Below, piece after piece: positions 5,275 to 32,988 of a DNA stretch of 43,892 nt. The notes under the pieces were generated by a model. That model was given only the letters and a program-made list of their open reading frames with translations. It did no database searches and was not told where the DNA came from. Position 1 is the stretch's first letter. Each line of letters opens with the position of its first letter. The DNA is from a virus: the IMG/VR virus record IMGVR_UViG_3300023179_003210, positions 1-43,892 of that record; one strand, 5' to 3'. The position numbers were made by a program, and so were the translations under genes.

Positions 5275-6435
5275 TTATGAGGCATATTCAAGGGCAAACT
5301 CTGTATTAAAAAACTCATCCCCTGCCATAGAACGTATTAACTTTTCAAATTCGGGGGTATTTTGCGGAGGAATATCTTTATAATTTATATATGTAATATT
5401 CCAACCTTTATCTTTAGATAATCCTAGTAGTTTACTATCAGGATTTTTAGGAGTTCCCCCTATAATAATTTTTGAACTCTTGCTACTAGCCATCATAGGT
5501 CTGATATATTTGAATACTTCATCAAATAATTCTTCTTGAATGTAATCAATATTATCCATTATAAGATTGTTTATACCAAATCCTCTCAACCCATACGAAT
5601 TAAAACTGCTAAACTTTATACGTGAACCGTTCATAAAAATCAAGTTCTCTTTGTCATGCCTATTAATTTCATCTTTTAACAGATTAGGAAGATTATTGTG
5701 TAAATTTATTATTAATTCCCTCATATGATCACTACCATGCTGTGATGACGAAAGTATTACATTGGTGATGTCCCTATGAAATATACAAGTATGTAATAGA
5801 AATATAGCATACAGAGTACTAACACCTGACTGCCTACTAGAATTAGTGATATTATATCTATTATCTCTCCAACTTGACAATATCTCTTTCTGTTTAGGAT
5901 ATAGTTTTATTAACTTGTCATTTATTCTGATATACTTTTCAGCAAAATATAAGATATCATCCTTACATGATTTAAACTCATTTACATCATTCTCATTATA
6001 TGTGATGGGATCATGAGCAAACTTGTACTTTTCAACTAATGCTTTCGGAGGACGACCTAGACGGATATGAATAATCCCATTAATATAATCATCACGGAAA
6101 AGAACGTTTTCATCGACCTGATACTTATGTTCTAACCACATATTTTCCCATGCACAAGAGGTAAGACAAAGTATCTCTCTTTTAAATGCATCTGGCCCAT
6201 CCTTGGCAAGTAACCGTTGAATTTCTTCACTGGATGAGAAATATTCCCGCCAATCACTCTCTTTAATAACCAATCTTTTACGTTTCTTGCCTTTAAGAGG
6301 GGGTTTACGAGTCTTTGAATGTAACTGCTTCTTACCAATGTACTTGATGCCACTAGGTAAATGTGTTATTCGGTAAATGAATCCAAATGAGTTATCAATT
6401 TCTTCTTGTGTAGGTATATTTTCCCAATTTGCCAT
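5275..6435 (-). CDS. GIY-YIG nuclease domain fused to a terminase-like ATPase domain
   Basis: A 386-residue protein with two parts. Residues ~18-125 form a GIY-YIG type domain: GFIYRITHL and KYIGKKQL give the two motif strands, followed by SDWREYFSSSEEI and FKREIL, the pattern of phage GIY-YIG nucleases. Residues ~150-386 look like the ATPase domain of a large terminase subunit: a Walker A-like SRQSGVST after YPKQKEILSSW, a degenerate Walker B (NNLIMDNIDYI in place of the usual DE) and a coupling-type IIIGGTPK. The protein stops at FFNTEFALEYAS, where the RNase H-like nuclease domain of gp17 would begin. It may be a split or degenerate packaging ATPase, or a homing-type nuclease with a captured ATPase. 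Confidence 0.7.
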   Translation of the reverse strand: MANWENIPTQEEIDNSFGFIYRITHLPSGIKYIGKKQLHSKTRKPPLKGKKRKRLVIKESDWREYFSSSEEIQRLLAKDGPDAFKREILCLTSCAWENMWLEHKYQVDENVLFRDDYINGIIHIRLGRPPKALVEKYKFAHDPITYNENDVNEFKSCKDDILYFAEKYIRINDKLIKLYPKQKEILSSWRDNRYNITNSSRQSGVSTLYAIFLLHTCIFHRDITNVILSSSQHGSDHMRELIINLHNNLPNLLKDEINRHDKENLIFMNGSRIKFSSFNSYGLRGFGINNLIMDNIDYIQEELFDEVFKYIRPMMASSKSSKIIIGGTPKNPDSKLLGLSKDKGWNITYINYKDIPPQNTPEFEKLIRSMAGDEFFNTEFALEYAS

Positions 6436-28590: not shown

Positions 28591-30339
28591 ATGAAAAAAG
28601 TAATTTTTGAAAAGATTCGATTAAGAAATTTCCTGTCATATGGTACAGAACCTACTGAATTGGTATTTCAAAATGGAATTAATTTCATAACAGGATTCAA
28701 TAAAGATGATAATTCCTATAATGGAGTTGGTAAGACTTCATTGATAGTAGAATCTCTTTCATTTGTTTTGTTCGGTAGCACTTACCGAACAATGACACAT
28801 AAGGAGATTAAGAATGATGATGCCCGAAATGACTGCATAGTAGAATGCTGGTACACCGTGAATGGTGTTCGGTATGCCATTATGCGGTCTATTTCACCTG
28901 ACATTTTAACCCGTACAATCATCCACGATGACGGTAGAGAAGAAGATAAGACAAAGACTAAACCTGAAACTACTAAGGATATTATCAATGATCTAGGCAT
29001 TACTAAAGAAGTATTCACCAATACTATCGTAATGACTAGTAAGGAATCGTCCTCGTTCCTGTCTCAAGATAAGTCTCTTAAGACTAAATTTATTGAAGGC
29101 ATTCTCGGATTAGAGGTATTTTCTAAGTTGGCAAAGGATGCTAAAGATGAATATACTGCCAAAAACACCGAATGGGGTAAAGAAGAAGCCCGATTACAAG
29201 AGCTTATAAAATCTATAGAACGGGATCAAGTCTATGCAGATTCTCATGAGGATCGTCGTGCTAAATTACTAAAGGATCATGATGAATTATTGAACCAACT
29301 TAAGGCTATTCATCCAATTGATTTATCCACTGAACTAGTTCAGATAGCGAGAGATATCGAACTTAAAAAAGCCGCTATAGTCAATATACAAGGTAAACAA
29401 CAACGGGCATCTACTAGAAAAACAGAACTTTCTATAGAATTGCGCAACGAACGCAACAAACTTAAATCATTAGTTGATAAACCTGCTAATTGCCCGACAT
29501 GTAAGCGTCCATTTGATAATCATCAAGAACATAATTTTGAGGAAGAGAGAAAACAGATCGAAATCTCAATTGCTGATTATGAAGACAAGCTTTCTAAATT
29601 AGAGGGTGTTATAAAAATATTAGATTCTAATCACTTGATAACCAACAATGAAGTGGCTGCATTAGTTAATAAAAATATCAAGACCCAAGAAGATCAAGAC
29701 AGATATCATAAATCTCAAGATCGAATATTAAGTATTACTAAAGAACGCGCAAACATTAGAACATCTACCAACCCATTTGCAGAAAAGATTGAACAAGACA
29801 AGGAACTTTTAAATAAAAAACGTGAGTTAGTTGATAACCTGAAAGAGGAAATGATAGTCTTAGAGGGATTAAAAATAACATTCTCTCCCACAGGGGTTAA
29901 AGCATATATCACTAGCAAGATTCTTGACGTAGTTAATGAACGTCTTAATTTCTATTTGAAAAGATTAAATACCCCATGTTCTATTAGCTTCGATGAATTT
30001 TTTGAAGAGACGGTAATTAATAAAGCAGGTAAAGAAATCTCATATGACCGTCTATCTGATGGTGAAAAAGGTAGAGTATGTTTCTCTATGCTATTCACTT
30101 TTAGAGATATACGTAGGTTACAAAGTAACGTAACCGTAAACATATCTGTGTTTGATGAATTATTTGATTCATCAATTGATATAAATGCAACAGAAGAAAT
30201 AATGGAATTGCTTAAAACTATGAGCGAACAGAACGAAGAAGCATACTATATCATAACACATAATCCTAGCAATGTCATGGTAGTAGATTCTAATATCATT
30301 CATTTAGAAAAGAAAAACGGCATAACAACAATCTTATAA
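28591..30339 (+). CDS. 46: Recombination nuclease subunit gp46 (Rad50/SbcC-like)
   Basis: A 582-residue SMC-like ATPase (T4 gp46: 560). N-terminal IRLRNFLSYG and Walker A GVGKTS (~residues 47-52). A coiled coil with the zinc hook CPTC at residues 301-304. The C-terminal signature RLSDGEKGRV, Walker B VNISVFDELFDSS and H-loop YIITHNP. It pairs with gp47 to resect DNA ends. Its partner is 18 kb away, whereas in T4 the two are neighbours. Confidence 0.93.
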   Translation: MKKVIFEKIRLRNFLSYGTEPTELVFQNGINFITGFNKDDNSYNGVGKTSLIVESLSFVLFGSTYRTMTHKEIKNDDARNDCIVECWYTVNGVRYAIMRSISPDILTRTIIHDDGREEDKTKTKPETTKDIINDLGITKEVFTNTIVMTSKESSSFLSQDKSLKTKFIEGILGLEVFSKLAKDAKDEYTAKNTEWGKEEARLQELIKSIERDQVYADSHEDRRAKLLKDHDELLNQLKAIHPIDLSTELVQIARDIELKKAAIVNIQGKQQRASTRKTELSIELRNERNKLKSLVDKPANCPTCKRPFDNHQEHNFEEERKQIEISIADYEDKLSKLEGVIKILDSNHLITNNEVAALVNKNIKTQEDQDRYHKSQDRILSITKERANIRTSTNPFAEKIEQDKELLNKKRELVDNLKEEMIVLEGLKITFSPTGVKAYITSKILDVVNERLNFYLKRLNTPCSISFDEFFEETVINKAGKEISYDRLSDGEKGRVCFSMLFTFRDIRRLQSNVTVNISVFDELFDSSIDINATEEIMELLKTMSEQNEEAYYIITHNPSNVMVVDSNIIHLEKKNGITTIL

Positions 30340-30342
30340 ATA
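30335..30342 (+). promoter_or_regulatory. Late promoter TATAAATA before thioredoxin
   Basis: TATAAATA followed by C, identical to the T4 late consensus and to the copy at 16858, overlapping the end of gene 46 and eight bases before the thioredoxin ATG. No -35-like TTG is present at the right distance, as expected for gp55-type promoters. Confidence 0.55.
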
Positions 30343-30350
30343 CATAACTT

Positions 30351-30644
30351 ATGGAAACAACAAACGAACAAACAGCAGTAATAAAGAAATCCCAAGACGA
30401 TAATCTTATCATCTATTACGGGGCAACATGGTGTGGTCCGTGCCGCGCAATGGCACCTACATTAGGACAATTAGAAGGAGTTATTAATATTATTAAAGTT
30501 GACATTGATGAATGTAGTAACTTAGCCAATGGCGAAGGAATTAGAGCAGTTCCGACTATTATTCATTATAAAAATGGATTAGAAGTTAATCGGGTTGTTG
30601 GAGGCAAGACAAAGGACGAAATAGTGAGACTTTATAATAGTTAA
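30351..30644 (+). CDS. Thioredoxin
   Basis: A 97-residue thioredoxin-fold protein with the active site WCGPC in YYGATWCGPCRAM (~residues 27-31), the cis-proline in AVPTIIHYKNG and the final VGGKTKDEI. It would act as electron donor for ribonucleotide reductase or other reductases. It has a late-type promoter of its own. Confidence 0.92.
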   Translation: METTNEQTAVIKKSQDDNLIIYYGATWCGPCRAMAPTLGQLEGVINIIKVDIDECSNLANGEGIRAVPTIIHYKNGLEVNRVVGGKTKDEIVRLYNS

Positions 30645-30657
30645 CCTAAAACATCAT

Positions 30658-30686
30658 TTGATAATGAAAAGAAGCCATGTTAAATA
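30658..30686 (+). promoter_or_regulatory. Promoter with -10 in hairpin, before the gene at 30695
   Basis: TTGATA, exactly 17 bases, TAAATA with an extended TGT, then eight bases to the ATG at 30695. The spacer forms the left arm of a 17-bp hairpin and the -10 enters its loop. Confidence 0.55.
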
Positions 30687-30705
30687 TTTTTAACATGGCT
30701 TCTTT
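30668..30705 (+). promoter_or_regulatory. 17-bp hairpin covering the start codon of the gene at 30695
   Basis: Perfect 17-base arms (30668-30684 and 30689-30705) with a four-base loop. The right arm contains ATGGCT, the start of the glycosyltransferase. A read-through mRNA from thioredoxin would fold the start away; an mRNA from the promoter at 30658 starts past the left arm and leaves it open. It may also act as a terminator (the right arm ends in TTT). Confidence 0.6.
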
Positions 30706-32044
30706 CGTTAATCCGAATACAAATATCAAAATACCGGGTATCACTCCGGTTAAACCCGTCGTTCAACCTATACATGGGCATCCTCTTTCTCCTTTCAGAC
30801 AGAAGTTAGGCGTTGTGGCTATTCAATCTAAAGGGTGGACTTCCCTTGCTAAACCGGAAGCATTCAAAATCCCTGTTCCCGGCGAAGGATTGCCTAGAGT
30901 AATTCATTACTGTGCAGACCAATCAGGATGTGGGTTCTGGCGTATGATATGGCCCGCTGATGATCTACTAGCCTATAATAAAGCAGTTGTAATGACTTTA
31001 TATCAAATGGTTACGTTTGCACAGTTTTATGGCGGTATTGATGCGGTGAGACTACAGCGCCAATGTACTGAAAATCAGTTAGAATTTGTTAAATTCCTTC
31101 GCACCGTTTCTGATGAAATCAAACGTCAAACAGGTAAAGGATTCCGTATTATTTGGGAAGTGGACGATGTGGTTCTCCCACATACTGATATCCCTGATTA
31201 TAATGCATGCAAAGCGGGATTCACTGATGATAAAATTCATGTTACTGTTAGGGAGATTGTAAAATATGTGGATGAAATGACCGTTGTTTCTGAATACATG
31301 AAACAACATTATAAAAAACATCTTGAATTTGATAAAATTTCAGTTGTTCCTAATTATGCTCCTAAACATTTAGTTGACGTTGGATTTAATCTAGAAAAGA
31401 TTATGTTCAATTATAAAAAGAGTAAGAACAAGAAACCCCGTATTCTGTACGCAGGTAGTGCCACTCATTTTGATGTAACTAATAATAATCATCAAAGAGA
31501 TGATTTCCAATATATCACTGATTATATATTAGATGATATTATCAATAAAAAGAAATATGAATGGGTCTTCCTTGGAGGCGCATTACCATATAGATTGCGC
31601 GAATATATCGGTAGAGGGGTAGAGTTCCATCCATGGATTCCTCTACCAGAATATCCTGATAAGATTAGAAATCTTAATTGCCAAATCATGCTAGCCCCTC
31701 TTGCTAATAACGTGTTCAACAGAGCAAAGTCAAATATCAAATTAACTGAAGGTGGAGCATTTGGTATCCCTGTTATTGCTCAAAATCTCGAATGTTATAA
31801 TTCAGACGGATGGAAATATCTATTCAATACGGGTGCAGAAATGATGCAAATGATAGACGATGTTCTCAAAACCCCAAGAGCATATGAAGAAGCTGTGGAA
31901 TTTGGTAGAGAATATGCAGCGAAATATCATTTAAAAGATCACCTAGATGAACTTGTCACTCTATATACTACCCCTTACGGCGACGAAAAACGCAAGGAAA
32001 GTAAATGGTTCTATGAACTAAACAAAGAACAGTTTAAACAATAA
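30695..32044 (+). CDS. GT-B (GT4-like) glycosyltransferase
   Basis: 449 residues from ATG 30695 (MASFVNPN); the ATG at 30677 lies in the left arm of the hairpin and is less likely. The N-terminal half has GCGFWRMIWPADDL and IIWEVDDVVLPHTD (acceptor domain); the C-terminal half has RILYAGSATHFD, WVFLGGALP and the donor-binding stretch NIKLTEGGAFGIPVIAQ, the E.ga.G.PVI pattern of GT4-like enzymes. It lies outside the main island, between thioredoxin and the replication genes. Confidence 0.8.
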   Translation: MASFVNPNTNIKIPGITPVKPVVQPIHGHPLSPFRQKLGVVAIQSKGWTSLAKPEAFKIPVPGEGLPRVIHYCADQSGCGFWRMIWPADDLLAYNKAVVMTLYQMVTFAQFYGGIDAVRLQRQCTENQLEFVKFLRTVSDEIKRQTGKGFRIIWEVDDVVLPHTDIPDYNACKAGFTDDKIHVTVREIVKYVDEMTVVSEYMKQHYKKHLEFDKISVVPNYAPKHLVDVGFNLEKIMFNYKKSKNKKPRILYAGSATHFDVTNNNHQRDDFQYITDYILDDIINKKKYEWVFLGGALPYRLREYIGRGVEFHPWIPLPEYPDKIRNLNCQIMLAPLANNVFNRAKSNIKLTEGGAFGIPVIAQNLECYNSDGWKYLFNTGAEMMQMIDDVLKTPRAYEEAVEFGREYAAKYHLKDHLDELVTLYTTPYGDEKRKESKWFYELNKEQFKQ

Positions 32045-32046
32045 GC

Positions 32047-32075
32047 TTGACATACTTTGAGAAGACATGTAATAT
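32047..32075 (+). promoter_or_regulatory. Consensus promoter overlapping a start-codon hairpin
   Basis: TTGACA, exactly 17 bases, TAATAT, five bases, ATG at 32081. The -10 sits in the loop of the hairpin at 32058-32091, the same design as at 30658. Confidence 0.65.
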
Positions 32076-32091
32076 GCCACATGTCTTCTCA
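32058..32091 (+). promoter_or_regulatory. 13-bp hairpin covering the start codon of the gene at 32081
   Basis: Perfect 13-base arms (32058-32070 and 32079-32091), eight-base loop. The right arm contains the ATG and first codons. Read-through mRNA would mask the start. Confidence 0.6.
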
Positions 32092-32488
32092 TGTCAAACT
32101 AGATAAACTCGTTAAATTAATTAATAAGAACCTTTACACCCTTTATAAACAAGGAGAGGTTTCTCACTATACTTATATTTTGGAGGTATTAAAAAATACC
32201 CTTCGATCTTCACAGGCTAATGAAATATTTGGTACTTTTCTTGGTCAAGTTCCACAGAAATACTCCAAACGCACATATATAACTTATGATATAGGATATT
32301 ATAGAGGAATGGAATATCCACAAACAACCCGTATTAAATTTTTTGGAGGCGAGGTAGATAATGACTGGTTAGATAATCGCATCAAAACATTAAATGCTAT
32401 GGCAGTTAAATTACCGTACGAAGATATGTGTCATACCGACGAAGAAGGTATTTTTGATTTTAATCACCTTCGCCGCTTTAAATTTTAA
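32081..32488 (+). CDS. Hypothetical protein, 135 aa
   Basis: 135 residues from the ATG at 32081 (MSSHVKLDKLVKLINKN); a TTG at 32057 would extend it through the promoter and is unlikely. The middle has a repeat-free alpha/beta look (YITYDIGYYRGMEYP). No family recognised. Own promoter and hairpin upstream; a further promoter follows its stop. Confidence 0.6.
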   Translation: MSSHVKLDKLVKLINKNLYTLYKQGEVSHYTYILEVLKNTLRSSQANEIFGTFLGQVPQKYSKRTYITYDIGYYRGMEYPQTTRIKFFGGEVDNDWLDNRIKTLNAMAVKLPYEDMCHTDEEGIFDFNHLRRFKF

Positions 32489-32956: not shown

Positions 32957-32988
32957 AAAAACCCCCTAGAAATTCTAGGGGGTTTTTT
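32957..32988 (+). terminator. Strong intrinsic terminator
   Basis: A 13-bp stem (AAAAACCCCCTAG / CTAGGGGGTTTTT) with a five-base loop and a T tract, 10 bases after the stop at 32947. It separates the coiled-coil gene from the DNA polymerase unit. Confidence 0.9.

Follow-up and report, generated by a model that had tools for sequence, protein, structure and literature searches.

A possible leaderless nested-promoter hairpin masking the start codons of two consecutive genes in a freshwater relative of phage T4

Introduction

Why does the start codon of a phage glycosyltransferase gene lie in one arm of a long, perfect hairpin whose other arm overlaps the gene's own promoter? The locus belongs to a freshwater relative of phage T4, a virus record whose T4-type genes in the window (the whole stretch of DNA analysed, 43,892 nt) include homologues of gp46 and gp47, UvsX, DNA polymerase and a gp55-like late sigma factor. 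Many small glycosyltransferase-like genes, with homing endonucleases interspersed, lie at 10497-31000, within the initial two thirds of the window. In a minus-strand ORF (5275-6435), a domain like that of GIY-YIG homing endonucleases is joined to a piece of the terminase large subunit. Here we compare the locus with five related contigs (G001 to G005) and weigh masking of the start codon against termination, DNA binding and protection of upstream messages.

Results

A 17-bp hairpin covers the start of the glycosyltransferase gene

The start codon (30695-30697) lies within the right arm of a perfect inverted repeat of 17 bp with a 4-nt loop, H1, which spans 30668-30705 (Table 1). Folded as a 101-nt RNA, the region has a minimum free energy of -30.4 kcal/mol (z = -6.5), which was equalled in 0 of 200 shuffles, and no ATG-covering stem in 4000 dinucleotide shuffles exceeded 10 bp. 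When approximately 800 candidate ORF starts from the window and the five related contigs were compared, such long stems covered only the start of the glycosyltransferase gene and that of its downstream neighbour. The original prediction of a 17-bp perfect hairpin with the ATG in its right arm and the end of the -10 element in its loop is thus borne out in pairs and coordinates. Its description of the left arm as the promoter spacer holds for most of that arm, which also takes in the -10-like hexamer up to its fourth base. A search of Rfam gave no match above the gathering score. The left arm contains a further in-frame ATG, at 30677, which we considered as the start and rejected: this codon is missing from G004, and the N-terminus of the G003 protein aligns with 30695.

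Table 1 Features of the two hairpins and their surroundings in the window.
Feature	Position	Strand	Remarks
Late-type element TAAATA	30337..30342	+	8 nt 5' of the thioredoxin ATG
Thioredoxin gene	30351..30644	+	Pfam PF00085, E 1e-19; also precedes the hairpin in G001, G002 and G004
-35-like element TTGATA	30658..30663	+	TTGA invariant, at fixed spacing, in the window, G001, G004 and G003
H1 left arm AAAGAAGCCATGTTAAA	30668..30684	+	Promoter spacer plus first part of the -10
-10-like or late-type element TAAATA	30681..30686	+	17 nt after the -35; TTAAATA invariant, at equal distance to the ATG, in four sequences, one of which lacks the hairpin
H1 loop TATT	30685..30688	+	TACG in G004
H1 right arm TTTAACATGGCTTCTTT	30689..30705	+	Contains the start codon and codons 2-4
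Predicted transcription start, A	30692	+	Inferred; 3-nt leader AAC; A in all homologues
Glycosyltransferase gene	30695..32044	+	ATG 30695; PHROG 7162, E 1e-25; N-terminus aligns with G003 and G004
Second nested promoter, -35 TTGACA	32047..32052	+	Can also pair with 32092-32097
H2 left arm TGAGAAGACATGT	32058..32070	+	13-bp stem, 8-nt loop; z -4.7
Second nested promoter, -10 TAATAT	32070..32075	+	17 nt 3' of TTGACA; largely within the H2 loop
H2 right arm ACATGTCTTCTCA	32079..32091	+	Includes the start codon
Gene for a 135-aa protein of unknown function	32081..32488	+	ATG 32081, 5 nt after the -10
Ordinary intrinsic terminator closing the gene array (comparison)	32957..32987	+	Score +38.6; intergenic

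The promoter elements within and beside H1 are conserved in sequence and spacing, in support of the nested anatomy that had been predicted. The ATG follows TAAATA by 8 nt, and the transcription start in Table 1 is placed at the sixth base after TAAATA, a position that we take from the T4 late-promoter rule. Arrangements of the form TTGA-N16-18-(-10)-N3-9-ATG precede the glycosyltransferase gene in 22 of 46 distant homologues, compared with 0.8% of random positions. The TAAATA of H1 resembles that found at structural genes in a phage that encodes a gp55-like sigma factor, yet it is accompanied by the TTGA. Since this TTGA, at N17, is conserved alongside it, the promoter of H1, as judged from its sequence, is not clearly a late one.

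Conservation of the hairpin among related phages

The same hairpin occurs in G001 and G002, and G004 has a divergent version, AAAGAAGCCATCTTAAA-TACG-TTTAAGATGGCTTCTTT, in which the loop is changed and a single stem pair is swapped from G-C to C-G, a compensated change. The window and G004 are 62% identical in thioredoxin and approximately 71% identical in the N-terminal part of the glycosyltransferase. Only 5 of 19 fourfold-degenerate sites in the thioredoxin gene and 19 of 49 in the glycosyltransferase gene are identical between them, and silent sites are therefore near saturation. Despite this, 16 of the 17 bases of the H1 left arm are kept in G004. The compensated pair is not significant alone (it was matched in 248 of 500 shuffles), and the hairpin-bearing lineages, of which only two are distinct, are too few for significant covariation statistics. 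The retained left arm is the stronger evidence. The G004 glycosyltransferase gene is itself interrupted at approximately residues 188-202 by an insertion with intein-like ends (L086 3380-3500, L004 2900-3010).

Promoter and hairpin are separable, because G003 keeps the one without the other: there gp46 lies directly upstream, thioredoxin and hairpin are both absent, and TTGA, TTAAATA and ATG stand in the same alignment columns. The idea that the hairpin accompanies this gene throughout the clade was rejected, since G003, G005 and the distant homologues keep the promoter only. A DNA-level search of phage records found nothing, and pattern scans of IMG/VR for wider occurrence gave mostly ordinary terminators or in-gene matches. 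In apparently unrelated phages (L121/L135 and L137), hairpins cover the ATG of tape-measure-like ORFs; these are not clearly related to H1 and were found by a pattern that required these letters.

The H1-type hairpin occurs only where thioredoxin is upstream, as would suit an intrinsic terminator for thioredoxin, possibly bidirectional, that overlaps the promoter and start of the next gene. Under this reading, the main rival to masking, which we consider doubtful and which might act jointly with it, RNA from the nested promoter would escape termination because it lacks the left arm. We took an intrinsic terminator to be a stem with a U-tract behind it that scores above zero on the coding strand by the d'Aubenton-Carafa method. 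The other terminators in these phages have scores of approximately +4 to +59. On the plus strand H1 scored below the threshold in the window (-5 to -16) and in G004 (-9 to -12), whereas the tail TTTTG of G001 and G002 gave +11.4, above it. The minus-strand score was positive (+4.0 in the window, +13.3 in G004), although no gene on that strand runs into H1. Stems of the form AAGAAGCCAT...ATGGCTTCTT with T-runs are ordinary intergenic terminators in other phages; in these phages, however, the confirmed-looking terminators have clean A/T tracts and are clear of start codons, and at H1 conservation extends to the stem but not to the U-tract. H1 is thus borderline and may in part be a terminator.

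A second hairpin at the next gene

An analogous layout, missed in the original prediction, is found at the next gene, within 32047-32097. This hairpin, H2 (32058-32091), can be extended by pairing of the -35 with 32092-32097 across a 5-nt bulge. Its promoter, TTGACA-N17-TAATAT, is sigma70-like and does not match a late promoter in sequence. Outside the window, the gene, at 32081, was found in G001 and G002 alone, and the contigs that carry it are near-identical. A standard terminator as the explanation for both hairpins is ruled out here, for H2 has no U-tract and a score of -50.6. By sequence, H2 cannot be an intrinsic terminator.

The arms of H1 and H2 share AGAAGnCATG, and both palindromes overlap promoters. 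The repeats might then be DNA operators, at which a dimeric protein bound to both arms across the -10 would repress the promoter. The symmetric change in G004 preserves a DNA palindrome as well as an RNA stem, and to this extent it also fits an operator and counts against masking. Nevertheless, we consider operators quite improbable, because the separation of the half-sites falls from 14 bp in H1 to 10 bp in H2, and this difference of 4 bp would put them on different faces of the helix. Perfect arms of 17 bp also exceed those of usual operators, and the extra pairing of H2 across its bulge suits RNA.

Each hairpin lies just past the stop codon of the upstream gene in a compact gene array. Both could accordingly shield the 3' ends of the thioredoxin and glycosyltransferase messages from exonucleases, or mark processing sites, and overlap the next start simply for lack of space. 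This is very improbable, because no H2-like hairpin follows the glycosyltransferase gene of G004 and none lies between the tandem thioredoxin genes of G001 and G002. Moreover, both hairpins have the ATG within the right arm, and in both the -10 falls at the loop. The tandem thioredoxin genes (L087 17784 and 18119 in G001; L090 2821 and 3156 in G002) have near-identical starts, TATAAATAcataacttATG, and the window has one copy.

Leaderless gene starts are general in this phage group

The -10 elements of both genes abut the ATG, with TAAATA ending 8 nt and TAATAT 5 nt before it. We examined 417 unique gene starts in the window and the five related contigs and found TTGAA to peak at -35, and TAAAT, TATAA and TAAGT at approximately -12, relative to the ATG. 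A Shine-Dalgarno-like motif was present at only 25 of these starts. TAAATA is strongly concentrated 5-8 nt before the ATG, including at the genes for the tail sheath, the major head protein and terminase; control hexamers, save overlapping ones, are not. In T4 and cyanophage S-MbCM100, by contrast, TAAATA lies approximately 20-49 nt upstream, in T4 usually with a Shine-Dalgarno sequence. Applied group-wide, the T4 late rule puts the transcription start at the AUG or a few bases away. The leaderless start, which had been put forward as a special combination at this gene, is to judge from these sequences real but general in this phage group. In the isolated Pelagibacter (SAR11) phage HTVC008M (L202), TATAAATA ends 5-6 nt before the ATG at 10 of 62 annotated genes, which suggests leaderless late mRNAs in that phage too.

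Predicted masking and exposure of the start codons

We propose that H1 is an RNA start-codon mask that encloses the gene's own promoter. Read-through RNA, predicted from the gene order and the lack of a strong intervening terminator to come from thioredoxin or further upstream, would carry both arms, so that the glycosyltransferase AUG would be buried in the 17-bp stem and not translated. RNA from the nested promoter would begin at approximately 30692, without the left arm, and its near-leaderless AUG would be translated. Gene 32081 would work alike through H2, and the effect would be to uncouple both genes from upstream transcription. The transcription starts, the read-through RNA and the translation block are what we infer from the DNA; a role in early or late timing is speculative.

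Folding predictions fit both halves of the proposal. On the long RNA, the AUG is paired with a probability of approximately 0.999 at both genes, and for the glycosyltransferase gene the unpaired probability is 0.001 for all three bases. On the short RNA from the predicted start, the unpaired probabilities of the three bases are 0.91, 0.22 and 0.13 for the glycosyltransferase gene and 0.92, 0.61 and 0.53 for gene 32081. The predicted difference in pairing between long and short RNA, on which the original prediction turned, is thus present, but exposure of the H1 start on the short RNA is only partial. Masking is further supported by the second, independent gene with the same layout. An internal AUG without a Shine-Dalgarno sequence may be poorly used in any case, and masking could then be redundant. 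Overall, we regard a start-codon mask with a nested promoter as the best explanation for H1 and H2, and as somewhat probable.

Discussion

Our broader proposal is that, in a T4-related lineage whose genes are leaderless genome-wide, a leaderless form of the T4 nested-promoter hairpin evolved that masks the 5'-AUG itself, at two consecutive genes, and so insulates both from upstream transcription; we hold the case for it to be evenly balanced. If it is true, the read-through-insulating hairpin of T4 works without a Shine-Dalgarno sequence to hide, and its logic extends to leaderless mRNAs. It would also offer a simple test of internal-AUG use on long RNAs in a leaderless system. Promoters that abut the ATG throughout this T4-related group bear on gene expression by phages of streamlined aquatic bacteria.

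H1 resembles an intrinsic terminator in its GC-based stem near a T-rich stretch, but both hairpins differ from one in overlapping a start codon and promoter and in their U-tract, which is poor in H1 and absent from H2. In Deinococcus-Thermus, promoters with a -10 adjacent to the ORF are described in connection with leaderless expression (PMC12340547), and the -10 likewise lies a few bases before the ATG. Here, in contrast, the genes are those of a phage and both sigma70-like and late-type elements are so placed; as we read it, that account describes no hairpin.

The closest parallels are in T4 and Aeh1, where nested-promoter hairpin logic is documented for e, soc, 49 and I-TevI, as well as for segB and mobE (PMC3014915, PMC2988022); the comparison with e, soc and 49 in the original prediction is thus supported. 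At e, soc, 49 and I-TevI, a stable hairpin sequesters the initiation region on the long read-through RNA, and a promoter in or beside its 5' strand yields RNA without that strand. At both genes studied here the AUG is predicted to be paired on the longer RNA, and the anatomy places the promoter so that the hairpin 5' strand would be left out of RNA from the predicted start. Unlike in those T4 genes, there is no Shine-Dalgarno sequence and the masked element would be a near-leaderless AUG; the promoters are not plain T4 late promoters, given the conserved TTGA as -35 and the sigma70-like -10 of the second gene; and two adjacent genes carry the hairpin. T4 segB and Aeh1 mobE, which encode homing endonucleases, also combine promoter and hairpin at genes inside longer transcription units (PMC2988022), whereas the two genes studied here code for a glycosyltransferase and a protein of unknown function, and what would be masked is the AUG, not the ribosome-binding site. 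The likeness is one of layout and logic rather than of demonstrated sequence homology. On the best reading of the sequence, H1 and H2 would work like the T4 nested-promoter hairpin, as a variant that masks a leaderless AUG.
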